This document shows, piece by piece, positions 3,106 to 64,000 of a stretch of DNA of 64,000 bases. This stretch comes from Woeseiaceae bacterium (lineage in GTDB: Bacteria > Pseudomonadota > Gammaproteobacteria > Steroidobacterales > Woeseiaceae), in contig JAOIZZ010000001.1 in NCBI GenBank assembly GCA_028227395.1, forward strand, positions 1 through 64,000, read 5' to 3'. The notes below the pieces were generated by a model that saw only the letters and a list, made by a program, of their open reading frames with translations, was not told where the DNA came from and did no database searches. The first letter of the stretch is position 1. Each line of letters begins with the position of its first letter. The translations under genes were made by a program, and so were the position numbers.

Positions 3106-4965
3106 ATGGGGATTAACATTAAGAGATACATACTTCTGCTGATTGCTATAATGGCCTCGACCTCTTCTCATGCAATGGACGTTAAGTTATCTCAAGTTGC
3201 CTTAACGCATGTCGATACGGAAATTAATATATCCAATACCGACGCCTTTCAGTTAATTAATGTATATATCGATACTCAAAAAATAAGTGGTACAACAGAT
3301 GAGTTTGGTGGTTTAGATCTGAAATTAAAATTTGATCATACTGGAAGAAAAAATCTTCGTATTGTTGGGTCTGATTTAGATTCAAAAGATTATTACTTAC
3401 GAGTTATTCCAGGTTGGGTTTCTATCGCGCCGCCATTACTGGCAATTTTTATTGCATTAATACTTCGCAATGTCATCCCTGCTTTGATTGCGGGAATCTG
3501 GCTAGGTGCCACGGCCCTTATATCTTTCACGCCAATGGGAATCTTTCAGGGGCTCTTAGATGGATTTCAAGTATATGTGGTAAAAGCCCTTTCCAATGAA
3601 GACCATGCGGCGATCATATTATTTTCGATGATGATAGGTGGAATGGTTGGGATAATCACGAGAAATGGCGGCATGAATAGCATTGTGATGCTTTTGGTTA
3701 GTAGAGCTAAGACAGCAATTGGTGGTCAAGTATCAGTATGGTTGATGGGGTTAATGATATTTTTTGATGATTACAGTAATACATTGGTTGTTGGGAATAC
3801 AGCCAGACCACTTACGGATCACCTCAAAATATCTAGAGAAAAATTAGCTTATATAGTTGATTCAACTGCTGCACCTGTAGTTTGTATTGCTTTAATTACA
3901 ACTTGGATTGGCTATGAGGTAGGTTTAATTGATCAAGCACTCAAAGGTATTCCTGAGCTAACAGAGCCTGCTTATACGGTTTTCTTGCATTCTATACCTT
4001 ATAGTTTTTACCCTATCTTGGCTATTATCTTTGTGTTTACTGTAGCCAGAACCGGTAAAGATATGGGTCCAATGTATCATGCTGAAGTAAGAGCAAGGAA
4101 AGGCCAAGTTTCGCCTGTGAATACCATGGATATGCCAGCCATACAGGGAGATAATCTAGAGGCAAAAGCGGGCGTAAAAATGCGTGCAATGAATGCATTT
4201 ATTCCTATAATAGTATTAATCTTCTCATTATTGGTGGGTCTTTATGCCACCGGTGAAGGGGATACAATGACAGATATAATTGGTTCTGCAAATTCTTATA
4301 CTGCGATGCTTTGGGCTTCATTATTGGGAGCCATGACGGCAGCTATAATGACTATATCCCAGAAGATATTAACCACTCATGAGACCGTTGATGCGTGGTT
4401 TGGTGGCGTGAGAGCCATGCTATTTGCCATGATTGTCCTGATTTTAGCTTGGGCACTTTCAGATATAAGTATGGCGCTTAATACCGCCGATTATCTGGTC
4501 TCAATTTTGGCTGATTCCTTGCCTGCTGAGATGGTTCCGGTCACAGTATTCATTCTTTCGGCCATTACTGCATTTACAACGGGAACGAGTTGGGGGACAT
4601 TGGGAATCTTGATGCCATTGGTAGTCCCATTGTGTTGGGCGGTAATGCAAGTCAATGGTGTTGCTGATGCTGAACATATGCATATATTGTATTCAGCTAT
4701 TGCCTGTAATCTAGCGGGTGCTGTTTGGGGAGATCACTGTTCACCAATATCTGATACTACAGTTTTATCCTCAATGGCTAGTGGCTGTGATCATATTGAG
4801 CATGTTCGAACTCAAATGCCATACGCTTTATTGGTAGGCATGGTAGCGATATCGATTGGTACTATACCGGGCGCTTATGGCCTGCCACCCATTATTTCAA
4901 TTATTGTTGGTGCAATTATTTTAATTGCGGTTTTAGGGTACTTTGGCCGCAGAGCTGATCAGTAA
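3106..4965 (+). CDS. NhaC-family antiporter/transporter with extracytoplasmic N-terminal domain
   Basis: A 619-residue inner-membrane protein. It begins with a signal-like segment (residues 5-23, ending SSHAM), then about 80 polar residues probably outside the membrane, then some ten or more membrane segments from about residue 104. Family features include GGMVGIITRNGGMNSI, FFDDYSNTLVVGNTARPLTDH and GTSWGTLGILMPLVVPL, typical of NhaC-type Na+/H+ antiporters. The family also contains amino-acid and carboxylate exchangers. No polyamine ABC transporter lies in the window, so this protein may move the amine substrates or a breakdown product of the pathway; that is inference from position. The extra N-terminal domain is not usual for NhaC proper. 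Confidence 0.85.
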   Translation: MGINIKRYILLLIAIMASTSSHAMDVKLSQVALTHVDTEINISNTDAFQLINVYIDTQKISGTTDEFGGLDLKLKFDHTGRKNLRIVGSDLDSKDYYLRVIPGWVSIAPPLLAIFIALILRNVIPALIAGIWLGATALISFTPMGIFQGLLDGFQVYVVKALSNEDHAAIILFSMMIGGMVGIITRNGGMNSIVMLLVSRAKTAIGGQVSVWLMGLMIFFDDYSNTLVVGNTARPLTDHLKISREKLAYIVDSTAAPVVCIALITTWIGYEVGLIDQALKGIPELTEPAYTVFLHSIPYSFYPILAIIFVFTVARTGKDMGPMYHAEVRARKGQVSPVNTMDMPAIQGDNLEAKAGVKMRAMNAFIPIIVLIFSLLVGLYATGEGDTMTDIIGSANSYTAMLWASLLGAMTAAIMTISQKILTTHETVDAWFGGVRAMLFAMIVLILAWALSDISMALNTADYLVSILADSLPAEMVPVTVFILSAITAFTTGTSWGTLGILMPLVVPLCWAVMQVNGVADAEHMHILYSAIACNLAGAVWGDHCSPISDTTVLSSMASGCDHIEHVRTQMPYALLVGMVAISIGTIPGAYGLPPIISIIVGAIILIAVLGYFGRRADQ

Positions 4966-5062: not shown

Positions 5063-5815
5063 ATGATGTTTCGATTAATTTTGGTTGTTCTTGGGTTTTT
5101 AATAAGTACGGTCACGTTTGCACAAAATAATAATGCAATCGAAGATAAGGTAAATGCAGCCCTTTCATCAGAAATAAGAACTACAGCAGAAAAAGCAAGA
5201 GATCGTAATAGAAAACCACTTGAAACATTGAATTTCTTTCAGCTTAAAGATGATATGCGAGTGCTCGAACTGGTTCCTGGTGGTGGTTGGTACACTAAAT
5301 TATTAGCTCCAGTTCTAAAAGAAAATGGTGAGTATTATGTAGCTGTCTGGGCGGACAACCTCAAAAAAGGATTGTTATCTCAAAAAGGTTTTGAGCATGT
5401 GAAAACGGTTGATGGAATCAATCCTTCTAGAAGTGGAGTCGGTCGCTTAAACACAATTGAGCCTTTTTCTCTGGGATTAATAAATTTAGATTTGGTTGTT
5501 ACTTTCAGAAATATGCATAATTTCGATGTACCAGGACGAAACGCGATTAATCAGGCAACTTACGATGCTTTGAAATCTGGTGGATTATATGGAGTTATTG
5601 ATCATACAAGACGACATATGCAACCAATGACAAATGAAGTATGGCGTAGAGCAGATCCTATGCAGATAACAAAAGAATTACTGGATATTGGGTTTGAACT
5701 TGCAGCTTATAGTGATCTTCATTATAGACCTGATGACGAATTACGTTATGAAGTAGGAAGAAAGTCAGTGACTGGAAATACTGATCGATTCACTATGCTA
5801 TTTAGAAAACCTTAA
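5063..5815 (+). CDS. Secreted SAM-dependent methyltransferase-fold protein
   Basis: A 250-residue protein with a clear signal peptide (FRLILVVLGFLISTVTFAQ). It has a Rossmann-type methyltransferase core around VLELVPGGGWYTKLLAPVL (residues about 70-90), resembling the exported predicted methyltransferase group COG4798. A good ribosome-binding site (AGGAG) precedes ATG 5063; ATG 5066 is an alternative. Its presence among polyamine genes is unexplained: the periplasm has little SAM, so the domain may bind another ligand or have lost catalysis. Substrate and activity are unknown. Confidence 0.75.
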   Translation: MMFRLILVVLGFLISTVTFAQNNNAIEDKVNAALSSEIRTTAEKARDRNRKPLETLNFFQLKDDMRVLELVPGGGWYTKLLAPVLKENGEYYVAVWADNLKKGLLSQKGFEHVKTVDGINPSRSGVGRLNTIEPFSLGLINLDLVVTFRNMHNFDVPGRNAINQATYDALKSGGLYGVIDHTRRHMQPMTNEVWRRADPMQITKELLDIGFELAAYSDLHYRPDDELRYEVGRKSVTGNTDRFTMLFRKP

Positions 5816-19707: not shown

Positions 19708-21375
19708 ATGCCTGAAAACTTACCTAAAGATTTTATTCGACAAATTATTAATCAAGATTCTCTTGGGGATCCTTCATGCATTACTATTACTCGTTTTCCA
19801 CCAGAACCAAATGGTTATTTGCATTTGGGTCACGCTAAATCTATTTGTTTGAATTTTGGAGTTGCCGCTGAAAATAAGGGCATTACTTTCCTGAGATTTG
19901 ATGATACCAATCCCACTAAAGAAGATGAAATATTTGTTGAATCAATAAAGAGCGATGTGACTTGGCTTGGCTTTGATTGGGGAAATAAATTAACCCATGC
20001 CTCAGACTACTTTGATAGATTTTATCTTGCAGCGGTGTCGTTGATTGAAAAAGATTTAGCTTATGTTGATGAGTCAGAGCCTGAAGAAATAAAAAGATTA
20101 CGAGGAACATTGACAAAACCAGGAGTTAATAGTCCATATAGAGATAGATCTGTTGAAGAGAATTTAACTATCTTTGAGCAAATGCGAGATGGAGAATTTG
20201 CAGACGGTAAGATGATTTTAAGGGCAAAGATAGATATGGCCTCGCCCAATATGAACTTGAGAGATCCAGCGATATATCGCATAAGACATCATCAGCACCA
20301 AAGAACCGGTGATAAATGGTGTATTTACCCAATGTATGATTTTGCACATGCACTTTCTGACGCTTTTGAAGGTATTACATATTCGCTTTGTACGCTGGAA
20401 TTTGAGGATCATCGACCTCTTTATGATTGGTTTATAAAGCAAGTAGAGACAAAACATCGTCCGCGACAAATTGAGTTTTCACGTTTAAATCTCGCATATA
20501 GCCTGACCAGTAAGAGAAAATTGAATGATTTAATCGAAAAGGGCGTTGTAGAAGGTTGGGATGATCCACGTTTGGTTACTATAGCTGGCATGAAAAGAAG
20601 AGGGTATCCACCTGCAGCTATTTTAGATTTTTGTCAAAGAATCGGTGTTACCAAGAAAGATAATATTATTGAAATGGGTGTTCTTGAGAATTGTGTTAGG
20701 GAGAATCTTGGCGATACATCTGAACGCAGAATGGGAGTATTAAAACCTTTAAAAATTACCATATCAAATTATGATAAGGATCAGGTGGAGTATCTCGAAG
20801 CTCAAAATCACCCTAATTTTCCAGATCTAGGTACTAGGCAGATGCCTTTTTGTCGTGAATTATATATCGAAAGAAGTGATTTTTTAGAAGATGCACCAAG
20901 AAAATTCTTTAGATTGAAACCTGGCGGTGAAGTAAGATTACGTTATGCTTATATTATTCGATGTGATGAAGTCATTAAAAACTCAAGCGGGGAAGTGATT
21001 GAGCTTATTTGTAGTTTAGATCCTGACACGAAAAGCGGTTCTGGTAAGAGTGACAAAAAAGTCAAAGGGACAATACACTGGGTATCTGCACAACATTCTA
21101 TTACTTCGAAAGTGCATCTTTATGATCGATTATTTAAGATTCCTAATCCTGCAAGTTCAGATGACATCGAGCTATCAATAAATCCTCAATCCCTGGAGAT
21201 TGTTGAAGCAGAGCTGGAAGCATCCTTTGCTGAAGAAAACGCACCTAAAGTTTTTCAATTAGAAAGAAATGGATATTTTTGTATAGACAATACCGATGGG
21301 AAAAAGAGATTCAATCGTATCGTCACACTCAGGGATTCCTGGGCCAAGATTGAAAAACAAGCGCTTAGCTCATAG
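19708..21375 (+). CDS. glnS: Glutaminyl-tRNA synthetase
   Basis: A 555-residue class I synthetase. The HIGH-type motif is in FPPEPNGYLHLGHAKSI (about residues 30-46). The KMSKS-type loop reads LTSKRKLNDL instead of the usual MSKRKL form. The C-terminal beta-barrel anticodon-binding half is complete (about 340-550). Full length matches E. coli GlnRS (554). A gammaproteobacterial-type GlnRS implies direct glutaminylation of tRNA-Gln rather than the amidotransferase route. Convergent with the downstream transporter gene with only 4 bp between them. Confidence 0.98.
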   Translation: MPENLPKDFIRQIINQDSLGDPSCITITRFPPEPNGYLHLGHAKSICLNFGVAAENKGITFLRFDDTNPTKEDEIFVESIKSDVTWLGFDWGNKLTHASDYFDRFYLAAVSLIEKDLAYVDESEPEEIKRLRGTLTKPGVNSPYRDRSVEENLTIFEQMRDGEFADGKMILRAKIDMASPNMNLRDPAIYRIRHHQHQRTGDKWCIYPMYDFAHALSDAFEGITYSLCTLEFEDHRPLYDWFIKQVETKHRPRQIEFSRLNLAYSLTSKRKLNDLIEKGVVEGWDDPRLVTIAGMKRRGYPPAAILDFCQRIGVTKKDNIIEMGVLENCVRENLGDTSERRMGVLKPLKITISNYDKDQVEYLEAQNHPNFPDLGTRQMPFCRELYIERSDFLEDAPRKFFRLKPGGEVRLRYAYIIRCDEVIKNSSGEVIELICSLDPDTKSGSGKSDKKVKGTIHWVSAQHSITSKVHLYDRLFKIPNPASSDDIELSINPQSLEIVEAELEASFAEENAPKVFQLERNGYFCIDNTDGKKRFNRIVTLRDSWAKIEKQALSS

Positions 21376-54285: not shown

Positions 54286-55698
54286 ATGCTGCCTGTTATA
54301 GCATTAATTGGTCGTCCCAATGTGGGGAAATCGACTCTTTTTAACCGTCTTACCAAATCTCGAGATGCCCTAGTTGCTGACTACCCTGGCCTTACAAGGG
54401 ACCGTCAGTATGGTTATGGAAAAATGGGAGCTATTCCCTATCTTGTTGTCGATACGGGTGGTATTACGGGTGGTGAAGAAGGTATTCACGAGTTAATGGC
54501 ACAGCAATCTAAACAGGCACTTCAAGAAGCAGACGTGGCCATCATAATGGTAGATGGAAGAGCTGGTTTAACATCTGTAGATGAATATATTGTGCAATTA
54601 ACAAGAGAGAATGCAAAAAAAATCTGGCTTGTTGCCAATAAAACAGAAGGTTTAGATGCAGATATTTCTACTTCCGAGTTCCATGGTCTTGGAATCCCTG
54701 ATCCAATAGCGATTTCTGCCGCCCATGGTGATCGTGTATCAGCATTAATGGATGAGATATTAGCGCCATTTGAAAATGATTTAGTCGAGGTTGAGAATGA
54801 TAATGAAGGCCTCATCAATACTGATAAAGACGCCCTAAATATTGCTTTTATTGGTAGACCTAATGTTGGTAAATCAACCTTGATTAATCGGTTGATTGGT
54901 GAGGATAGGCTGGTAGTTTATGACCAACCAGGGACCACCAGAGACAGTGTTTCTGTGCCTCTAGAGCGAGATAAAAAAAAATATTTATTTGTTGATACTG
55001 CAGGAGTGCGTCGCAAAGGAAAAGTAAAGGAAGTCATTGAAAAGTTCAGTATCATTAAGTCACTACAAGCAATAGAACAATCCAATGTGGTATTTGCAAT
55101 GATGGACGCAAAAGAGGGCATCACAGAACAAGATATTAGTTTAATGGGGTTAATTGTTCAGCGAGGTCGTGCCCTAGTAGTAATAATTAATAAATGGGAC
55201 GGACTTACCAATGAACAAAAGAAATTCTTAAGAGGTCAACTTGAACGACGTTTACCATTTCTTGATTTTGCTGAACAACATACAATCTCAGCTTTGCATG
55301 GAACCGGAGTTGGGGATCTATTAGCCGCATCTCAACGGGCATATCTTGCTGCAACACGAGATTTACCAACTAATAATTTAACTAAAGAACTCGAAGAGGC
55401 GTTAATTGAACATGCTCCACCATTAGCTGGAGGTCGACGAATTCGATTAAGATACGCTCATCAAGGCGGTCGAAATCCACCAACTATCGTTATCCATGGC
55501 AATCAAACTGAGCGACTCCCGTTAACTTATAAGCGTTATTTAACAAAGCGTTTTAGAAAGAAATTCCGTTTAAAAGGTACTCCTGTTCGACTTGTATTTA
55601 AAACGGGCGATAATCCTTATAAAGGACGACGAAATAAATTAACACCACGGCAAGATAGAAAAAGAAAACGCTTGATGAGTTTCGTTAAGAAGAAGTAA
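54286..55698 (+). CDS. der: Ribosome-assembly GTPase Der (EngA)
   Basis: A double-GTPase protein of 470 residues from ATG 54286 (MLPVIALIGRPNVGKST), which matches the E. coli N-terminus; a TTG two codons earlier is a less likely start. A second G domain begins at about residue 185 (IAFIGRPNVGKSTLINRL), with NKWDG as G4 motif. A KH-like C-terminal domain ends in a very basic tail. It is needed for 50S maturation. This is the last conserved core gene before the island. Confidence 0.97.
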   Translation: MLPVIALIGRPNVGKSTLFNRLTKSRDALVADYPGLTRDRQYGYGKMGAIPYLVVDTGGITGGEEGIHELMAQQSKQALQEADVAIIMVDGRAGLTSVDEYIVQLTRENAKKIWLVANKTEGLDADISTSEFHGLGIPDPIAISAAHGDRVSALMDEILAPFENDLVEVENDNEGLINTDKDALNIAFIGRPNVGKSTLINRLIGEDRLVVYDQPGTTRDSVSVPLERDKKKYLFVDTAGVRRKGKVKEVIEKFSIIKSLQAIEQSNVVFAMMDAKEGITEQDISLMGLIVQRGRALVVIINKWDGLTNEQKKFLRGQLERRLPFLDFAEQHTISALHGTGVGDLLAASQRAYLAATRDLPTNNLTKELEEALIEHAPPLAGGRRIRLRYAHQGGRNPPTIVIHGNQTERLPLTYKRYLTKRFRKKFRLKGTPVRLVFKTGDNPYKGRRNKLTPRQDRKRKRLMSFVKKK

Positions 55699-55728
55699 TT
55701 TTACCCATATAAATCAATAGGTTACAAT

Positions 55729-55788
55729 AACTCCTGTACAACTCCTGCCACTTTTTGGTACACTAATAACTCCTATATAACTCCTGTA
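55729..55788. other. Candidate attachment/integrase-binding region
   Basis: AACTCCTGTA at 55729, AACTCCTGCC at 55740, AACTCCTATA at 55768 and AACTCCTGTA at 55779: four related decamers in two pairs, each pair spaced exactly 11 bp. Between the pairs lies the inverted repeat TGTAC (55735-55739) and GTACA (55758-55762). The block sits between der and the tyrosine recombinase, 13 bp from its ATG. Helically phased direct repeats next to an integrase gene are typical of arm-type sites or an att junction; it could alternatively be an autoregulatory operator. Confidence 0.55.
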
Positions 55789-55801: not shown

Positions 55802-57766
55802 ATGGATAAGGCGAATGTACTAAAAGGTAATTTTTCCACAAAGAGAACTCTTCACTTTACTGACGCTAAGATTAAAAAGATCTCTACACGCAGTCAGAAG
55901 CTAGATAACTGGAAAGAAGAAACTGTCTGGTCAAATAAGCACGTTGGTTTTGGTATTCGTATCTCACCAATCGGAAACCAATCAGGGCATCAACTACCTG
56001 CTAAATTTCGTCTTAGGTATATCACTACTGGAACTCCTAAAGGAATGGCTCGTAATATTAAAATTATTGGAGCTGATCCAACAACGATAACTTTTAGTAA
56101 AGCGTTAAGTTGGTATAAGGATCAAAGCGCTATGCTTCAGCAAGGTATAAATCCTAACCAATCTAATAGAGAATCAAGGACAAAGACAGATGAGCTTTCA
56201 ATACTGGAGCTTGGTGAAGCTGAATTAAATCCTGTAATTGATAATAAAAAGTTAGCTGAAGCCACGAAGATTCACTACAGATCTCATCTTAACCAGATTA
56301 TAAAAAGAATTGGTGATAGAACCTTTAATGATTTAACTGAAAGAGATTTAAAAGCTCTATTGAAAGATCGTAATGCTGATCATCTTAGAAATTTTGTAGC
56401 CTTTCTGCAGAGGCTTGAGAATAAATTACCTCCAAGATTTAAACCAGAGGAAACATTTACGACACGATGTGAAAGAGAGTTCGGCAAGCTACCAAAAAGA
56501 AAGAGTAGAAAGAAGCAGACTCTTGCTTACGAGCCACATCAACAACAAATCGCTCAGTTCTTCTTGGCTCTTCAGTACGCTTATAATGGCTATACTGTCC
56601 GTGAAGGAAGTAAAGCTAGGTGGGAGCGTATTGATACTCTTGCTATGACTGACATTAAAAATCTATCAGCTAAAGAACTTGATCGTTTGGATATAACTGA
56701 AACTTATGGTCAAGAAACTTCGGCAAAAAAAGATTGTTTCATTAAACCGACCATTACTCATAGAGCAACAGTAGATGCTTTGATGCTGATGTTTCTAACT
56801 GGACTTAGAAAAAAGAATGTTTTTGAGATGAAGTGGGAGGATGTTCTTTGGGAAGATAATACATTATTAATTCCAGATATGAAGATGAAAGACGATGATG
56901 AGGTAGTAAAAATACCTTTGACGGTATACACCAAAGCCATTCTTCAATACACAAAAAGCGACAGCCAAGCTGATGATGTGTATGTGTTTGTAAATAAAAA
57001 TAGCAGAAAGCAATTATCAATAGGCAATTACACAGAAGCTTACAGACGTATAGCTGTATGGGCTTGTATGTTGGATTATACAGATGAGTATCCAAATATA
57101 AGAAGTCTGACTTTGGACAGAGATGATGATCGGGATAAACCGAAGACCTATAAAAAGAATCCTTTAGATCCTGCAATCAAAGCAACTGATTTAGATGTTT
57201 ATCTTTCACTTGATAAGTTCTTCCCTGAATTAATACGATCTTTGATAGAGCAAACTTATGACTCTATGAAACAAGCAGCTGATTTGAATCTCAATATCAG
57301 GAATATAGTTAAAGGGTTAGGTTTCAATCCACACGGCTTAAGGCGAACAGCATTAAACGTAGCAAGTCTCTTACTATTAAATCCAAATATATTTCTAAGG
57401 CACGAAGCTAAGACAACAGGACAAAAGCATTACACTGCAGAAACTACTTGGGATCTTGAGCAGAAAAGTCTGACTCGTTGCCACGAATATATTGATAATA
57501 GAATCTTTGAAAGTTTAGGTAATGATACTGAGCATAATGAAAAAGTATTTGCTTCGCCCATCCTAAAATTCTATGAGTTACCTCGCTTCATACCACAAGA
57601 TATATACTTTGATATGTCTAAACATAAAGAAAATCAAATTGGTAATGAAGAAAATATCCTATCAGAACAATACCAGTTAGAGGATTATCCAACAGAATTT
57701 AAACCTGCTGTTGGTAGCCCTGAAGATGGCTCGGCTAATGATTCAGTATATGAAGGTGATTTCTAA
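55802..57766 (+). CDS. Tyrosine-type site-specific recombinase/integrase of a genomic island
   Basis: A 654-residue integrase. The N-terminal region (about 15-120, FTDAKIKKI, VGFGIRISP, FRLRYITTG) resembles the DUF4102 arm-DNA-binding domain. A SAM-like core-binding region follows at about 135-210. The catalytic part has Arg336 in LTGLRKKNVFEMKW, His511-x-x-Arg514 in HGLRRTALN and nucleophile Tyr544 in KHYTAETTW. It is much longer than the usual 380-420 residues: the Arg-to-His spacing of 175 is expanded and an acidic C-terminal tail follows the Tyr. Its place next to der marks the boundary of the accessory region. Confidence 0.9.
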   Translation: MDKANVLKGNFSTKRTLHFTDAKIKKISTRSQKLDNWKEETVWSNKHVGFGIRISPIGNQSGHQLPAKFRLRYITTGTPKGMARNIKIIGADPTTITFSKALSWYKDQSAMLQQGINPNQSNRESRTKTDELSILELGEAELNPVIDNKKLAEATKIHYRSHLNQIIKRIGDRTFNDLTERDLKALLKDRNADHLRNFVAFLQRLENKLPPRFKPEETFTTRCEREFGKLPKRKSRKKQTLAYEPHQQQIAQFFLALQYAYNGYTVREGSKARWERIDTLAMTDIKNLSAKELDRLDITETYGQETSAKKDCFIKPTITHRATVDALMLMFLTGLRKKNVFEMKWEDVLWEDNTLLIPDMKMKDDDEVVKIPLTVYTKAILQYTKSDSQADDVYVFVNKNSRKQLSIGNYTEAYRRIAVWACMLDYTDEYPNIRSLTLDRDDDRDKPKTYKKNPLDPAIKATDLDVYLSLDKFFPELIRSLIEQTYDSMKQAADLNLNIRNIVKGLGFNPHGLRRTALNVASLLLLNPNIFLRHEAKTTGQKHYTAETTWDLEQKSLTRCHEYIDNRIFESLGNDTEHNEKVFASPILKFYELPRFIPQDIYFDMSKHKENQIGNEENILSEQYQLEDYPTEFKPAVGSPEDGSANDSVYEGDF

Positions 57767-57802: not shown

Positions 57803-58360
57803 TTAATCAGCCTCTGCAATACCAAATAATCTCTGTGCTTTTTTCAAATCAAATGGTAATCCCAACTTATCCATTTCAGCTTCAACTTTATCAATATATG
57901 ACGTATCCCATTTTCCTGCTTCTAAAGACTCAAGGTTCTTTAATTGAGCTTTTTTTTCTGATGTATTCAATTCAATTAAAACACCTTCTGCATCAAAGAC
58001 AAATTCTGCTGAAGATATATCTTGATTAGTTCCACCATCAAACAATCCATAAAATGGAATCCAATTTGCTGCACTCATACTCATAGTGGCATAGTAATAA
58101 ATCCACTTGGTTTCAGGTGGACTAGAACTATCAACATTAGCAGGTTGACCAAACTCATCGTAAATATTGCTTTTCGTACTTAACTCTTCTTTAATATTAC
58201 GATATTTACCTATCTCCTTTATTTCTGAGTTACCAACTGACTTAGCACCAAACATTATTTCTGATGCACTCATACCTCCGCCATCTTCGTTAAGCCTTGA
58301 TTGTTTAGTTGCACAGCCACTCAATAGAATTACTGCTGATATTAGAATTAGATGTTTCAT
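57803..58360 (-). CDS. Putative outer-membrane lipoprotein
   Basis: A protein of 185 residues from ATG 58360, chosen because GGAGATAAGT precedes it and it opens with a lipoprotein signal (MKHLILISAVILLSGC; lipidated Cys16). The frame is open 31 codons further upstream but that part is not signal-like. The mature region has FGQPANVDSSSPPETKWIYYY, faintly like the BamE/SmpA fold in which a lipoprotein checks outer-membrane assembly; that is weak. No firm function. It is convergent with the integrase gene. Confidence 0.7.
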   Translation of the reverse strand: MKHLILISAVILLSGCATKQSRLNEDGGGMSASEIMFGAKSVGNSEIKEIGKYRNIKEELSTKSNIYDEFGQPANVDSSSPPETKWIYYYATMSMSAANWIPFYGLFDGGTNQDISSAEFVFDAEGVLIELNTSEKKAQLKNLESLEAGKWDTSYIDKVEAEMDKLGLPFDLKKAQRLFGIAEAD

Positions 58361-58474
58361 ACTTATCTCCTGTTCAAATAGAGTACCAGAAATAAAAGAA
58401 CCTAACACTGGTATCCAATCATATCCATTTGCTATATATATTAAGTGGTACAAATAATACTAATAGAAACATAC

Positions 58475-58561
58475 ACTTAGCTTTAAATAACCTATCCAAA
58501 CACCTGCAATAATTGACAATCTGCGACAGACTTTAGCAGTGAGATAGGTATTTTGTTAGGT
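58475..58561. repeat. 87-nt imperfect palindrome (attC-like shape)
   Basis: Outer arms ACTTAGC (58475-58481) and GTTAGGT (58555-58561) pair with two G-U wobbles. Inner arms ACCTATC (58490-58496) and GATAGGT (58543-58549) are perfectly complementary. Further in, CACCTGC pairs with GCAGTG with one bulged base, around a 28-nt loop. The arrangement of two simple sites with a bulged stem recalls integron attC sites, and GTTAGGT fits the GTTRRRY core, but the other end has one mismatch to RYYYAAC. It could equally be a structured 3' region or terminator of the minus-strand gene at 58585. Confidence 0.5.
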
Positions 58562-58592
58562 TGGGTTTAAATATGATTTATTTATTAATTAA
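58555..58592 (-). repeat. Gene-end repeat, copy 1 (minus orientation)
   Basis: Plus strand GTTAGGTTGGG then TTTAAATATGATTTATT and so on. The same sequence with a few changes occurs at 59516-59554. In minus orientation it lies just after the stop codon of the gene at 58585, reading TTTAAACCCAACCTAAC. Related to the 31-bp repeats at 61690 and 63098, which hold AAACCAACACCTAACC after plus-strand genes. Confidence 0.6.
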
Positions 58593-58965
58593 TCAAATCA
58601 CCATTAATAATATTATGATCCACCTTCATTAATAAATATCCTGTACAGACTGAACTCCCACTGGTCTTTGAAAAGCTAAAAAAATCTCCTACTTTTTTTA
58701 TTGCATACCTACATTTATATTGATCAGATAGCAGAGTTACACCGCCTTGTGAGAATGTCCACGCACCTTCCCATTTAACTCTAGAATAAATGTTACTAAA
58801 ACCACTAAGCGATCCATCTTTTGCAAAAGAAAATTCAGTTTTACTATCATTTAATGATTTAGCTGAACTATTAATAAAAACTTTACCTTCAATATCACCT
58901 TTAGTTAAATCGTCAGCAAAAGAATTGATTGAGAGTAAGAGTAATAATACTAGTAGTTTTTTCAT
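58585..58965 (-). CDS. Small secreted protein of unknown function
   Basis: A 126-residue product from ATG 58965; six further upstream codons (ATG 58983) are open but the signal peptide MKKLLVLLLLLSINSFA fits the later start. The mature protein has two cysteines (YKCRY and SSVCTGY) that could form a disulfide, and a repeating aromatic-glycine pattern (VKWEGAWTF) suggesting a small beta-barrel, perhaps lipocalin-like. No family was recognised. It is a single gene with gene-end repeat copy 1 at its 3' side. Confidence 0.65.
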   Translation of the reverse strand: MKKLLVLLLLLSINSFADDLTKGDIEGKVFINSSAKSLNDSKTEFSFAKDGSLSGFSNIYSRVKWEGAWTFSQGGVTLLSDQYKCRYAIKKVGDFFSFSKTSGSSVCTGYLLMKVDHNIINGDLIN

Positions 58966-59028
58966 ATCTAAAATATACAACAATAGTTCTTAAATTAAAA
59001 ATCCTATATAATAAGCACAAGTATCAAG

Positions 59029-59118
59029 AGGAGAGTTAAGTCTCTCGCCAACCTGCTAACTTCTTGCAAGGTGGAATAAACGATACGGCTAACCAAGCAA
59101 CTAAAAGGAGAATACAGA
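59029..59118 (+). promoter_or_regulatory. Structured 5' leader of the 115-residue gene
   Basis: The 90 bases before ATG 59119 contain GAGAG-TTAAGT-CTCTC, then ACCTGC-(9 nt)-GCAAGGT with one bulged A, then GGCTAACCAAGC and finally AAAAGGAGAA as ribosome-binding site. Two adjacent stable hairpins followed by a strong binding site is the layout of a cis-regulatory RNA. No known riboswitch class was recognised. Confidence 0.45.
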
Positions 59119-59466
59119 ATGACTAACGTTACTAAAATCCCTGACATTGTTATAAGAAAAGACAATACCGCACGGCTTAATACTTATGATGCACGTTATT
59201 GGTTTTACACAAGCACCAATGCAAGAGACATAGTTGATTGCCATTACAGTCCTGAAGACTTCCAATTCCCTGCTGTAGTTAAACTGCCCGATAACATAAT
59301 GGATCGCTTTGAGATTATTCTTGAATCGTCTGGTGATGGACTAACTATTGTTCTGCAAGGAGAGTCTGAACCAATAGCTTTTAAGTTATTAGAAAAACTT
59401 CAAAGTGATTTAAGATTAGAAAGAATAGATGAGAATAATCTTATTGAATATGTATTTGCTGTTTGA
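59119..59466 (+). CDS. Hypothetical protein, 115 residues
   Basis: A cytoplasmic-looking, mildly acidic 115-residue protein with an excellent AAGGAG site before ATG 59119. It has no signal peptide or membrane segment. Pattern suggests a small alpha/beta fold: VKLPDNIMDRFEIILESSGDGLTIVLQG forms beta strands and AFKLLEKLQSDLRLERID a helix. No family is recognised. A structured leader precedes it and a stem-loop repeat begins at its stop codon. Confidence 0.65.
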   Translation: MTNVTKIPDIVIRKDNTARLNTYDARYWFYTSTNARDIVDCHYSPEDFQFPAVVKLPDNIMDRFEIILESSGDGLTIVLQGESEPIAFKLLEKLQSDLRLERIDENNLIEYVFAV

Positions 59467-59494
59467 TGGTGGTAAAAGATGATCACCAATTACT
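59465..59494. repeat. Stem-loop repeat A, copy 1
   Basis: Begins at the stop codon of the 115-residue gene: GATGGTGGTAAAAGATG followed by ATCACCAATTACTT. GGTGGT (59468-59473) pairs with ATCACC (59482-59487) using one G-U pair. Copy 2 at 60361 has GGTGAT at the same place, a compensatory change that keeps the stem. Confidence 0.6.
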
Positions 59495-59515
59495 TAGATA
59501 GTTTTTCAAATTGTG

Positions 59516-59554
59516 GTTAGGTTGGGATTTAAATATAGCTTAGTTATTAAATAA
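59516..59554 (-). repeat. Gene-end repeat, copy 2 (minus orientation)
   Basis: Plus strand GTTAGGTTGGGATTTAAATA and on to GTTATTAAATAA, matching the element at 58555 with small insertions. ACTTAG at 59492 can pair with TTAGGT at 59517-59522, echoing the outer arm of the palindrome at 58475-58561. In minus orientation it follows the gene whose stop is at 59602, 47 bp away. Confidence 0.6.
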
Positions 59555-59601
59555 AGAAGCTATTAGCAAAAATAATATTATTAGAAAAAATTTTAGCTTT
59601 C

Positions 59602-60291
59602 TTAAATTTCTTTTTGGATCAGGGTTTTTATATCTTCTATAGATTTTTTTGCCGTAACCAATAATCTACGATAATTGTTTGCAGGATAACTTAGTGTTGA
59701 TAAATGTCCGTAAAACTTATCTGACATATAGTATTCCTTATTAAAATCATATTTATATAAGACTCTATCTCCATAAACATCGCCTTCATCAATGTTGTAG
59801 CTGAATCTTATTGCAAAGCCTTCAAGAGTCTCTCTTATATATTGAATATGAAGATTATCTAAAACAATAGAAATTGTATTATTTCTCTCTTTTTGTGTTT
59901 CATAAAAGTCGATTAATTGTCTTTTAAGTATTGAGCTTTCTATTAATTCATAGGAGCCAGTTGAAATAAGTTCATTGTAGACACCAATAGCTGGAAAGTA
60001 AGATGCACCAACTTCAATATCCAAAATAAGGTTGACTGCTTCTTCATCTGATAAATTATTATGATTACTTTCAATATCATCTTGAAGAACTGAGATCCAA
60101 CTCAGACTATCGTCCAAAATATTTTGTATTATCTTAATTTGGTTAAGATCATCATCAAGAGCCTGATTCAAATCTTGTAACAATTCTTTTTTTATTTCGA
60201 TGTTATTTTTTTGAGTATTTAATTCTCCAATATAAAAAGAAAGTAATATACCGCATATTATGACTGCACCTTCAATTACATATTTGATCAT
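59602..60291 (-). CDS. Single-pass membrane protein, DUF6090-like
   Basis: A 229-residue protein. An N-terminal membrane anchor (YVIEGAVIICGILLSFYIGEL, residues 4-24) is followed by a long helical, partly coiled-coil region (KELLQDLNQALDDDLNQIKIIQNILDD). The remainder has GVYNELISTGSYELIESSILKRQLIDFYE. This arrangement resembles DUF6090-type proteins common in marine bacteria, for which no function is known. ATG 60291 is used; a possible promoter region lies in the 575-bp gap upstream. Confidence 0.65.
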   Translation of the reverse strand: MIKYVIEGAVIICGILLSFYIGELNTQKNNIEIKKELLQDLNQALDDDLNQIKIIQNILDDSLSWISVLQDDIESNHNNLSDEEAVNLILDIEVGASYFPAIGVYNELISTGSYELIESSILKRQLIDFYETQKERNNTISIVLDNLHIQYIRETLEGFAIRFSYNIDEGDVYGDRVLYKYDFNKEYYMSDKFYGHLSTLSYPANNYRRLLVTAKKSIEDIKTLIQKEI

Positions 60292-60866
60292 CAGTTATCC
60301 TTCTTGGGCAATAGTTTCTTCATCCATTAACAATATCAGATAACAATTAAGTTATCAGGTGATGGTAGAAGATGATCACCAATAACTTTAAAAACTTTAC
60401 AAGGCTTTACCCTTGCTCCACATCTAAGATAATAATAAGAATAGATTACTAATATTGTGTTTGTTGATTAATTTAACAGGCTGTTTAAGGCGCTATAAGA
60501 GAAATAAACGCTACCTGTATTATAGGTGTTTAACCGGGCTGGCTAAGTTACTTCAGTATACAGGTAAATGAAAGATTTGTCAAGGTTTAATTTATAATAA
60601 TTAAATTAATATGTTTTATGAACTTTGTAATAAATTAAAAATACACTATTTAGAGCAGCTTGTCAAGGTTTAGGGGTTAGATTTAGATGAGTATTAGATG
60701 CTCTTAAAACGCACTGTAGGGCTTCTTAGCGGTAGTTATTTAGTAGGTTCTTTCTTCATCTAATCGAAGTATTAAATGACGTGATATGCTTTTGATATTG
60801 AATACAGGAGATGTGAAATGGAACAAAAAGATATTAGCTACTTATTAGTGGATAAAAATACTTCCC
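60292..60866. other. 575-bp gap with inverted and direct repeats, no firm gene
   Basis: Contents: stem-loop repeat A copy 2 (60347-60391). A 9-bp perfect inverted repeat TACCTGTAT (60512-60520) / ATACAGGTA (60558-60566), enclosing CTATAA/TTATAG-type symmetry and further short complementary blocks. A 13-bp direct repeat TTGTCAAGGTTTA at 60577-60589 and 60660-60672. A 20-codon frame at 60818-60880 behind a good ribosome-binding site. The density of structure suggests a non-coding RNA or remnants of recombination. Confidence 0.55.
60347..60391. repeat. Stem-loop repeat A, copy 2
   Basis: TTAAGTTATCAGGTGAT, 11-nt loop, ATCACCAATAACTTTAA. About 15 base pairs with two small bulges, the strongest hairpin in the island. 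The inner part (60361-60388) matches copy 1 at 59465. It is upstream of the DUF6090-like gene on the opposite side, so it is not simply a terminator of that gene. Confidence 0.65.
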
Positions 60867-60880
60867 TCAATCATCACTAA
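60818..60880 (+). CDS. Possible 20-residue peptide or gene fragment
   Basis: ATG 60818, preceded by ACAGGAGATGTGAA (a convincing ribosome-binding site), opens a 20-codon frame with product MEQKDISYLLVDKNTSLNHH, ending TAA at 60880. It overlaps the 3' end of the convergent pentapeptide-repeat gene by 14 bp. It may be the surviving start of a gene cut by rearrangement, or a true small protein. There is no similarity to go on. Confidence 0.25.
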   Translation: MEQKDISYLLVDKNTSLNHH

Positions 60881-61370
60881 CCTCTCCCCAAGGCATCTTT
60901 GTTTTCAAATATCTTACTCCTTCTAGTTTGGCATTTCTTAGTTTGCTTGTTGTTAAGTCAGCACCAGTAAGGTTAGCACCACTAAGGTCAGCACCAGTAA
61001 GGTTAGCATCACTAAGGTCAGCACCACTAAGGTTGGCATCACTAAGGTTGGCATCACTAAGGTCAGCACCATTAAGGACAGGACCAGTATTGTTAGCACC
61101 CTCAAGGAAAGCACCAAGGTTGGCACCACTAAGATTAGCACTCTCAAGGACAGCACATCTAAGGTTGGCATCAGTAAGGTTAGCATCACTAAGGTCAGCA
61201 CCACTAAGGTTGGCATCACTAAGGTTGGCTTCAAAAAGGCGAGCACCAGTAAGGTTGGCACCACTAAGGTTTGCACCACTAAGGTTTGCACCAGTAAGGA
61301 CAGCACCACTTAAATCACACTCCGGACAAGCATTAAGACTTTTAAGCTTTAATAAATCTGTTTTGTTCAT
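60867..61370 (-). CDS. Pentapeptide-repeat protein
   Basis: A 167-residue protein with about 24 pentapeptide units of the A(D/N)LSx type from residue 20 to 150 (for example SGANLSGANLTGARLFEANLSDANL split into units). These stack into a right-handed quadrilateral beta-helix. Family roles include DNA mimicry and gyrase protection (Qnr/MfpA), but most members have unknown function. An N-terminal CPECDLSG segment with two cysteines precedes the helix. The opposite strand is also open here because of the repetitive code; the pentapeptide pattern shows the minus strand is real. Confidence 0.88.
   Translation of the reverse strand: MNKTDLLKLKSLNACPECDLSGAVLTGANLSGANLSGANLTGARLFEANLSDANLSGADLSDANLTDANLRCAVLESANLSGANLGAFLEGANNTGPVLNGADLSDANLSDANLSGADLSDANLTGADLSGANLTGADLTTSKLRNAKLEGVRYLKTKMPWGEVSDD
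60957..61308 (-). repeat. 15-bp tandem-like coding minisatellite
   Basis: Imperfect repeats of a 15-bp unit (plus strand ACTAAGGTTGGCATC and variants with GCACC) encode the pentapeptide units. Several blocks of 30-60 bp are identical, consistent with recent expansion by slippage or unequal exchange. Confidence 0.8.
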
Positions 61371-61446
61371 AACCTCAGTCTAACTCCATCTGATGAATGT
61401 ATCAAAGTAGTGGTATGGTTATGTTATTGGATAAAGGAGAAATAAA

Positions 61447-61692
61447 ATGGATTGGGGTAATTCCTATGTGAAGTTTGCAGTAGTGTTTATCACCTTATTA
61501 GTTTTCTTTATGGGGTTTTATTATATATTTTCACCAGTTCAAAACTGTATAAGAGAAATCACTACACACAATCAGATAGTCCTTGATTCTTATAAAGAGA
61601 GGGATGTTGAGTGGTATAACAAAATGCAAAACGAATATTATTTTTCTCGCGCCAAGGCTGAAATAAACTGCAACAAGGATTACAGTTGGTAA
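61447..61692 (+). CDS. Small single-pass membrane protein
   Basis: An 81-residue protein behind AAAGGAGAAATAAA and ATG 61447. One membrane span (FAVVFITLLVFFMGFYYIF, about residues 10-28) follows a short N-terminus. The rest is a soluble, probably helical region with two cysteines (VQNCIREI and EINCNKDYSW). No family is recognised. The stop codon TAA is the first part of the 31-bp repeat that also occurs at 63098. Confidence 0.6.
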   Translation: MDWGNSYVKFAVVFITLLVFFMGFYYIFSPVQNCIREITTHNQIVLDSYKERDVEWYNKMQNEYYFSRAKAEINCNKDYSW

Positions 61693-61720
61693 ACCAACAC
61701 CTAACCTTCACAAGAGTTTG
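61690..61720 (+). repeat. 31-bp direct repeat, copy 1
   Basis: Begins TAAACCAACACCTAACC and continues TTCACAAGAGTTTG; identical at all 31 positions to 63098-63128. It starts at the stop codon of the 81-residue gene. CTAAC (61701-61705) pairs with GTTAG (61720-61724), giving a small hairpin in this copy only. The two copies are 1,408 bp apart and flank two genes. Confidence 0.95.
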
Positions 61721-61741
61721 TTAGTTGTGTAGGCTGGTGTG

Positions 61742-61813
61742 ATGTATTTTAAGAAACTATTCCTAGTAACAATACTTTGTCTTTTCTCTAGCTTGGCTTG
61801 GAGTTATGGATAA
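61742..61813 (+). CDS. Possible 23-residue signal-like peptide
   Basis: ATG 61742 opens 23 codons with product MYFKKLFLVTILCLFSSLA then WSYG, a textbook signal peptide with cleavage motif and nothing after it. The stop overlaps the start of the next gene (ATG 61806). It may be the remains of a secreted protein gene, or a leader peptide whose translation couples to the gene at 61806. Ribosome-binding site is weak. Confidence 0.3.
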   Translation: MYFKKLFLVTILCLFSSLAWSYG

Positions 61814-62048
61814 AAAAATATTAGAAAGAGCGTGCGTTGTATTTCAGTTACTTGGCTATGGATACTTTATTTACGAACTTTTGTATTATCTATACTTGAA
61901 ACCAATTATTTGGGATCTATGGAGTCTTGGCATATATCCAGCAGCTTATACTGTACCTCTTGATATAGTAATTCCATTGCTCACAAGATGGTGTCTGACA
62001 GGGAAGTTTAAGATCCTACCTATTATGTCTAAGTCAGAAGAAGATTAG
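61806..62048 (+). CDS. Small membrane protein, unknown function
   Basis: An 80-residue hydrophobic protein with two probable membrane segments (about 8-32, VVFQLLGYGYFIYELLYYLYL, and 45-62, AAYTVPLDIVIPLLTRW). It is rich in tyrosine and tryptophan. It begins within the stop region of the 23-codon signal-like frame. No family is recognised. Confidence 0.5.
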   Translation: MDKKILERACVVFQLLGYGYFIYELLYYLYLKPIIWDLWSLGIYPAAYTVPLDIVIPLLTRWCLTGKFKILPIMSKSEED

Positions 62049-62054
62049 ATCTAA

Positions 62055-62189
62055 TTTACAATCTCAAAATATAAAATTGATGGAGAAGAAGATGGTATTG
62101 AATATGATCAAGCAATGGTGGTTGAGCTGAGAGGATATGCAATAGCTGAGATTAACTCAGGGATATTAAAAGATCAGTTAAAGGAGTAG
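62055..62189 (+). pseudogene. Open stretch without start codon, possible gene remnant
   Basis: A 45-codon stretch between stop codons reads FTISKYKIDGEEDGIEYDQA, then MVVELRGYAIAEINSGILKD and QLKE. The composition is protein-like, but the only ATG (62115) leaves 24 codons. It ends 6 bp before the next gene, whose ribosome-binding site it overlaps. It may be the tail of a lost gene. Confidence 0.25.
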
Positions 62190-62195
62190 GAGATA

Positions 62196-63062
62196 ATGTC
62201 ATTTGATTGGGACCCAATAGAAGCAACGCGCAGAATGTTGCGTAATGCTATAAATATTGAATGTCCGGAGTGCTTGGGAGACGGTACGGATTTACCGAAA
62301 GAAATACAGGATCCTATCAAACTATGTTATGAATGTTCGGGGTATGGAAGAGTATTTGCTAGCCATTATTCAACGGGTCAAATCCATGAAATGTGGCCTT
62401 TGCATGATTCCATAAATGAATTTAAGCTTAGCGAAATTGAAAAAATTAATAAGGAAACTACTATTCTTAGAGAATTAAAAGCTGATTTCGCATTTCATGA
62501 AGCAAAGGGATTATCAAAAAAAGAGGCACTAGATAAAATTCAAAAAGAATTTGATAACGAAAAAAGAAAACTTTTAAAACTAGAAGATAGAGTTTTATAT
62601 GAACAGATAATAAAGGAAAAGATACGCGCACATGCAGCAGAGAAAAAACATGGTCCTGATGTAAAGCTTAAAGATTTGATAATGAGTAAAGAAAGAAAAG
62701 ACAACTTAGACAATTTGGATGATGAATTGGTAGTTACTCAAGAACAAAGACGATGGGCTAAAGTATCAGATGAAGTATATAGTCGTGATGAATTACTAGC
62801 TGCTTGCCTTCTAGCTTCTTTTCTTCTAACTTGTTCTTCAGATGAACCATATACTGATGATGGTGGTAAGGAGGAATCACTAATGAGTATATGGAAAAAA
62901 GGGCGATATAGATCTGACATTAAATGGGTAGCGCAAGAGTTATTCAATGGTGGATTTGAAACTCTACTAGAAAGTTTAGAACCAGAAGATCAAGCAGTTA
63001 AAGATGATATTCTTCATATGATGAGTCATTTAGTTATAGGTTTAAAAGATAAATTAAAGTAA
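62196..63062 (+). CDS. Protein with two DnaJ-like CxxCxGxG zinc motifs, unknown function
   Basis: A 288-residue protein with AGGAG before ATG 62196. The N-terminus carries CPECLGDG (about 23-30) and CYECSGYG (about 44-51), two of the CxxCxGxG units that bind zinc in DnaJ; DnaJ itself has four plus a J domain, which is absent here. A long charged coiled-coil-like helix follows (about 75-165, e.g. KIQKEFDNEKRKLLKLEDRV). The C-terminal part is a helical domain (LAACLLASFLL and later). It is probably a zinc-binding adaptor; no partner is evident. Confidence 0.6.
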   Translation: MSFDWDPIEATRRMLRNAINIECPECLGDGTDLPKEIQDPIKLCYECSGYGRVFASHYSTGQIHEMWPLHDSINEFKLSEIEKINKETTILRELKADFAFHEAKGLSKKEALDKIQKEFDNEKRKLLKLEDRVLYEQIIKEKIRAHAAEKKHGPDVKLKDLIMSKERKDNLDNLDDELVVTQEQRRWAKVSDEVYSRDELLAACLLASFLLTCSSDEPYTDDGGKEESLMSIWKKGRYRSDIKWVAQELFNGGFETLLESLEPEDQAVKDDILHMMSHLVIGLKDKLK

Positions 63063-63097
63063 GTAATTAATCAATCTACTTAACATCCAAATCTGGC

Positions 63098-63128
63098 TAA
63101 ACCAACACCTAACCTTCACAAGAGTTTG
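63098..63128 (+). repeat. 31-bp direct repeat, copy 2
   Basis: Exact duplicate of 61690-61720 (TAAACCAACACCTAACC then TTCACAAGAGTTTG). It lies 36 bp after the stop of the zinc-motif gene and 64 bp before the lipoprotein start. It lacks the GTTAG arm that forms the hairpin in copy 1. Confidence 0.95.
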
Positions 63129-63191
63129 ATTGCCGTTATCTTAATAGCTTATTATTTGTAACAATATGGTTACTAATGTAGCTTGTTTGTA

Positions 63192-63485
63192 ATGCATAAA
63201 CTAATCCCACTTCTTATTTTTCTTTCTTTATCCGCTTGTGGTGGGGGTGGATCAGATACTGTCGAAACAGCGGTAACGGATGCCGCTACTAAACAAGCTG
63301 AAGATGCTGCCACTGCTGCCGCTGCGAAAGCCGCTGAAGATGCTGCCGCCGCTGCTACTGCTGCCGCTGCGAAAGCCAAAGAAGAAGCTGCAGCTGCATT
63401 GGCAACAGCTATTTCTGATGCGGAAGCAGCAGCCAATTCCAATCGTTTTGAATCTGCAACTTTGGATTCAAGTAAATTTCAATAA
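63192..63485 (+). CDS. Alanine-rich small lipoprotein
   Basis: A 97-residue product from ATG 63192; a TTG three codons earlier is less likely. The signal ends in the lipobox LSLSACGGGG with lipidated Cys16. The mature part is very alanine-rich with imperfect 11-residue repeats of the DAATAAAAKAAE type, indicating a long alpha-helix or coiled coil, like Lpp-class surface lipoproteins in shape though not in sequence. The opposite strand is open but is only the complement of GCN codons. It is followed after 9 bp by another exported-protein gene, so they probably form an operon. Confidence 0.75.
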   Translation: MHKLIPLLIFLSLSACGGGGSDTVETAVTDAATKQAEDAATAAAAKAAEDAAAAATAAAAKAKEEAAAALATAISDAEAAANSNRFESATLDSSKFQ

Positions 63486-63494
63486 GGTAATATC

Positions 63495-64000
63495 ATGAAA
63501 AAAATAATCCTCATTCTTATGTTTACGCTTTCCTTTCAAGCTTACGCGGATGATTACAAAACAGCCCAACGCTTTGCTGCAGGAGATGTGGTCTCAGCAG
63601 ATGTTTTGAATGATATATTAGACAGGATAGAGCTTACTTTGAAATCAGTAACTGCGGCAGATTTTGTTGGTACTTGGGATGTGACTCAAACAACATGTGC
63701 TGGAGGTGCTCTTGGAAATTGCAGTAACATCACTCCTGCACCAATTGACTACAACGCTAGTGTAGATAGTTTATACAAACAAAGAGCTGATACAGTAACC
63801 TTCAGTGATGATGGTGACGGAACATATTCGCTTCAAACCACCAATTATTGTGCTTTTGTCAGGTCAGGCTCAGGTAATTCTTCTTGTAATTTAAATTATG
63901 CTGTTGTTGATAGGCGATTTATTTTTCAAAACTCAGGAGACGCTGCTTACTCATTGCAAAGAATAAGCGATACAAGAATAGTATTATCAATGATGGCTTC
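63495..64000 (+). CDS. Secreted protein of unknown function (partial, C-terminus beyond window)
   Basis: ATG 63495 opens a frame that continues to the window end (168 codons). A signal peptide (MKKIILILMFTLSFQAYA) precedes a short helical region (YKTAQRFAAGDVVSADVLND) and then a beta-rich domain starting DFVGTWDVTQTTC, with FSDDGDGTYSL, that looks like a small lipocalin-type or WD-like barrel. Four cysteines could form two disulfides. Co-transcription with the alanine-rich lipoprotein is likely (9-bp gap). No function is recognised. Confidence 0.75.
   Translation, partial: MKKIILILMFTLSFQAYADDYKTAQRFAAGDVVSADVLNDILDRIELTLKSVTAADFVGTWDVTQTTCAGGALGNCSNITPAPIDYNASVDSLYKQRADTVTFSDDGDGTYSLQTTNYCAFVRSGSGNSSCNLNYAVVDRRFIFQNSGDAAYSLQRISDTRIVLSMMA

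Follow-up and report, generated by a model that had tools for sequence, protein, structure and literature searches.

The window analysed here is a stretch of 64,000 nucleotides, bases 1-64000 of the 201,893-base contig G000:C1 of a Woeseiaceae genome. Near its right-hand end the essential GTPase gene der (engA) is followed by a cluster of short repeats and a tyrosine recombinase gene, and the features that we recognise at this locus are as follows (contig coordinates).

54280-55698, + strand: der (engA) GTPase gene, the predicted integration target; an open reading frame with full-length relatives in most of the 60 genomes searched.
55667-55699, + strand: attL core (predicted), 33 bp of the der 3' end, AACGCTTGATGAGTTTCGTTAAGAAGAAGTAAT; a direct repeat.
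55729-55735, + strand: putative arm-type site A1, AACTCCT; from sequence and shuffles.
55740-55746, + strand: putative arm-type site A2, AACTCCT; 11 bp after A1.
55768-55774, + strand: putative arm-type site B1, AACTCCT; from sequence and shuffles.
55779-55785, + strand: putative arm-type site B2, AACTCCT; 11 bp after B1, with the right-end counterpart pair at contig 64654 and 64665.
55802-57766, + strand: tyrosine recombinase (integrase) of 654 aa; matches the Phage_integrase domain and, weakly, Arm-DNA-bind_3.
57803-64000, no strand assigned: island cargo to the window end; the island runs on to contig position 64721.
G000:C1:64722-64754: predicted attR, the second core copy, 722 bases past the window end.

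The 103 bp that separate the der stop (55698) from the integrase ATG (55802) contain all four AACTCCT copies, which begin at 55729, 55740, 55768 and 55779 and form two pairs with start-to-start spacings of 11, 28 and 11 bp. An earlier sequence-only reading had described them as four decamers in two 11-bp-phased pairs. The pairs stand, as the arrangement was reproduced in 0 of 50 dinucleotide-shuffled windows and in 0 of 5,000 shuffles of the gap and is far beyond chance; strict decamers do not, the letters common to the copies numbering 7-8. Any 7-mer occurring four times within 60 nt is found at only three places in the 64-kb window, one being the AACTCCT cluster and the other two coding repeats in a pentapeptide gene near 61010 and an alanine-rich gene near 63318. 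A lone phased 8-mer pair is not rare, with five clusters per 64 kb in the window. At the DNA level, the gap matched none of the phage records compared.

When the genome was searched with the der-integrase gap, the der 3' end recurred at position 64722, and an arm pair was located at positions 64650-64672. This third AACTCCT pair, at 64654 and 64665, has the same 11-bp phase and the same orientation as the left pairs; it lies 50 bp inside its core, and the left pair lies 29 bp from its own. Self-comparison of the locus (L044) placed the 22-nt pair unit at 55725, 55764 and 64650 (converted from locus coordinates) and the two copies of the der end, 9,055 bases apart, at 55667 and 64722. The attL and attR cores are identical at 30/33 positions, and their three differences (GTT/GTG, AAG/AAA and TAA/TAG) are read as synonymous, in the last codons of der; if these differences date from integration, the crossover probably occurred within the 19 bp that precede the first one. 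By sequence, putative arm-type sites flank the core on both sides, with pairs at 55729, 55768 and contig 64654, and the AACTCCT pair adjoining a copy of the der 3' end bears out the expectation that a second copy would lie at the other island end. Together, the two cores and the AACTCCT pairs bound a predicted 9,055-bp island carrying the 654-aa tyrosine recombinase.

These results also relocate the core, which the sequence-only reading had placed at a TGTAC/GTACA inverted repeat among the AACTCCT copies. At least one 5-mer inverted repeat of this kind arises in 28.7% of shuffles of the 60-base stretch, the left arm of the inverted repeat is simply the spacer of the first AACTCCT pair, and no such inverted repeat is present beside the arm pair at the opposite island end. 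Being at chance level in shuffles and missing beside the far-end pair, it is ruled out as the core; that role falls to the 33-bp der 3' end at 55667-55699.

The close relatives of this der gene are found in Woeseiaceae assemblies, including the MAG FRAM18_bin273 (G003, 99% identical) and AG-319-E21 (G006, 89%). In G003, contig C47 ends with the left junction and its repeats, and contig C8 begins with the right junction and its pair; the target direct repeat is present at both ends here as well, with cores identical over 33/33 bp, and the left repeats are kept, one of the four with a substitution. That both junctions fall at contig ends fits an island that varies or that failed to assemble. The sequence just past the G003 repeats differs from the start of the 654-aa integrase, and the contig stops about 110 bp later; this difference is what weighs most against simply pairing the putative AACTCCT sites with the 654-aa integrase, no homologue of which was found in G003 or G007. 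A match in G032 to the G003 post-repeat sequence looks, by eye, like DNA adjoining a transposase end. In G007 (contig C100) the right junction comprises the arm pair, a der-like end and then metX directly. Empty sites are seen in three relatives: der is followed directly by metX in G006 and G002, and by one short ORF and then metX in G001. None of these island-free relatives has the repeats downstream of der, in agreement with the sequence-only reading, and this absence rules out AACTCCT as native der-metX sequence.

We also surveyed 78 der loci by script, made up of 29 loci (L015-L043), which cover part of the 60 genomes with G000 left out, and 49 others, one of which is without the der end; some genomes are represented twice. 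AACTCC phased repeats within 200 bases of der occurred only on the G003 contig (listed twice), and unrelated phased 8-mers near der occurred at three other loci (L114, L117 and L027). None of the 78 loci held a copy of the der end better than 22/33, the loci L015-L043 reaching at most 1.5 kb downstream. A further AACTCCT pair lies in G004:C20, with no der core in the stretch read; a search of eight genomes with the AACTCCT pattern gave five real matches versus five for a reversed-pattern control, and the G004:C20 pair may be due to chance.

That the repeats at der are a decaying tandem repeat or a chance product without function is hardly credible: no shuffle reproduced their arrangement, and pairs of the same kind are also found by the other core and in both G003 and G007. 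What speaks for such an origin is that an unrelated viral contig (L157) carries a tandem array in which a similar unit repeats every 11 bp, in a stretch where no integrase was noticed. The arm pattern was found in two stretches of the viral contigs, the L157 array and a match in L158; a der-like end was not seen in the part of L158 read, and the der-end pattern had no match in the viral contigs. The L157 array (5625-5725) consists of about nine 11-bp units of the AACTCCTAYAC type and looks like a simple tandem array, and a DNA comparison of it with phage records gave no match.

Downstream of the right core in G000, a further 1.8 kb (contig 64760-66580; L044 9761-11581) with a thermonuclease-like ORF precedes metX. 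G003 has a shorter version of this segment and G007 and G006 have none, a pattern suggestive of a second insertion at der; no further copy of the core was seen in it by eye.

The 654-aa integrase matches PF00589 (Phage_integrase) above the cut-off at residues 326-418 (E=8.4e-10), and its match to PF13356 (Arm-DNA-bind_3) at residues 19-124 (E=1.3e-4) is below the cut-off of that family. The catalytic residues R336, H511, R514, H534 and Y544 (R..HxxR..H..Y) were assigned by eye from motif positions. A single-sequence structure prediction had a mean pLDDT of 30.5 and was of no use, and a PDB sequence search gave no match. Searches of viral contigs, plasmids and phages, one of which reaches close relatives only, likewise gave no match, and 396 genomes of the order yielded the integrase itself and five weak matches to part of the catalytic domain, with no close relative among them. 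Judged by these comparisons, the protein appears to be a divergent near-orphan and mildly new.

A second island in the same genome provides a control. The tRNA-Ser(GCU) gene at C47:9807-9897 has its 3' end repeated at 20637-20658 (19/22), delimiting an island at G000:C47:9876-20658 with its own 438-aa integrase (start at 20541). As at der, phased short repeats, here spaced by 11 and 12 bp, lie between the integrase start and the core and again at the other end; they differ in being TGTAGTA triplets (9949/9960/9972 and 20550/20561/20573) rather than AACTCCT pairs, in serving a tRNA target, and in the size of the integrase (438 aa against 654 aa). Because the two islands share this placement and differ in repeat sequence, the repeats are arm-site-like, each integrase presumably having its own. 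On the 5' side of the tRNA-Ser gene, two copies of GCCATACA with 11-bp spacing (G000:C47 9735 and 9746, L077) are possibly the arm sites of another island.

Taken together, the AACTCCT repeats are very probably arm-type integrase sites of a genomic island integrated at der. The evidence for this reading consists of the equally oriented second core and third phased pair at a distance of 9 kb, both junctions in G003, the right junction in G007, the empty sites in G006, G001 and G002, the integrase domain and the tRNA-Ser control. The sequence-only reading had likewise taken the repeats for arm-type sites marking the left island boundary, and the far-end pair and core copy together with the empty sites in relatives argue in its favour. 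On the attL (integrase-proximal) side, the adjacent integrase would bind the four repeats through its N-terminal domain, and the circular form would carry, in order, arm pair C, 50 bp, the 33-bp core, 29 bp, pair A, pair B and the integrase start. We infer that the N-terminal domain would hold the arm pairs while strands are exchanged in the core, that der would receive a synonymous new 3' end and this essential gene stay intact, and that the island could excise. The sites just upstream of the integrase gene might in addition let the integrase repress its own gene.

The position of the repeats, 16-73 bp upstream of the integrase ATG, also fits a role mainly as operators, at which the integrase or another regulator would control the integrase promoter as for intS of KplE1, a prophage whose attL overlaps the integrase promoter and whose integrase (IntS) represses itself (excerpts of PMC2951348). 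We consider this unlikely as the main role, since an identically phased pair lies at the far island end, where it neighbours the other core and is distant from the integrase gene, and since the sole promoter-like match on the forward strand (55700-55728) precedes the repeats and scores close to chance. Operator function is compatible with the arm-site reading as a second role. The excisionase sites of phage lambda lie on one side of the core. Binding of the repeats by a recombination directionality factor (RDF, excisionase) rather than by the integrase appears very unlikely, as the repeats lie on both sides of the core, unlike the lambda layout, and the island yielded no recognisable small DNA-binding ORF; in its favour, winged-helix factors can bind phased direct repeats, as BldC binds 9-bp direct repeats (excerpts of PMC11963761).

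With respect to the class of element, the integrase with its catalytic domain adjoins one island end, and the cargo comprises small ORFs mostly of unknown family, a pentapeptide-repeat protein, a DUF6090 protein, and lipoprotein-like and secreted-looking proteins. Among the 10 island ORFs scanned, no excisionase was recognised (three further small ORFs were listed only), no Pfam match to relaxase or conjugation genes was obtained, and there was no match to defence families and no convincing packaging match. An ICE or mobilizable element is rejected on the lack of relaxase and conjugation matches in these ORFs. In PHROGs the island ORFs matched an integrase family and otherwise families of unknown function, with weak tail/Hoc matches to the C-terminal part of a 273-aa protein that looks FN3-like by eye; a phage satellite (PICI/PICMI) was rejected, as packaging or control genes were not found among the island ORFs with PHROGs. 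Tycheposons use a tRNA as target, and the target here being der rules against that class.

The island also holds a SAM-I/IV riboswitch (59016-59114, + strand; 62.7 bits against a cut-off of 41.1) directly before a 115-aa ORF of unknown family (59119-59466). Identical or near-identical repeats occur around cargo genes, one of 31 bp (61690-61720/63098-63128) and one of 29 bp (63073-63101/contig 64457-64485), the latter within an element of which another copy is found close to the tRNA-Ser gene (G000:C47). A lipoprotein-like protein (63183-63485) is paired with a secreted-looking one (63495 onward), and the former closely resembles a protein beside the tRNA-Ser gene (L077 2850-3158; next gene 3167-4375), a resemblance that suggests cargo exchange between islands.

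The arrangement has parallels in known systems. At the attL of KplE1, too, the integrase gene adjoins the core and the arm sites (excerpts of PMC2951348); KplE1 is a prophage, whereas the element described here has der as target and another arm sequence (that of KplE1 lying outside the comparison), with no RDF found. The attP of ICEMlSymR7A also carries several short arm motifs, namely five IntS arm-type sites (TGKTGGTATC), all five of which are needed for efficient integration (excerpts of PMC11963761); the motif at der differs, with six sites in three 11-bp pairs, and relaxase or conjugation genes were not seen in the ORFs scanned. In dusA-specific genomic islands, likewise, the integrase targets a protein-coding gene, the island supplies a replacement for the gene end, and the att sites are imperfect direct repeats (excerpts of PMC4482086); the dusA repeats measure 21 bp and lie at the 5' end of the gene, whereas at der integration is at the 3' end and the repeat is 33 bp long.

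In an open-access library we found no account of der/engA as an attachment site; such reports may nevertheless exist. The island at the der 3' end is of an ordinary kind, its address is unusual, and der as target is mildly new. We propose tentatively, and with slightly more doubt than belief, that the der (engA) 3' end is an unreported integration hotspot, which a near-orphan 654-aa recombinase has used repeatedly within one small-genome marine genus of Woeseiaceae (G000, G003, G007 and the adjoining second insertion), and that conserved arm sites may outlast exchange of the integrase gene. Both ends of the island are fixed in an uncultured marine lineage, with an essential GTPase gene as the apparent attachment site and its coding end restored, and, judging by the like layout of the tRNA-Ser island, short repeats in phase beside an integrase gene may help to locate island ends.
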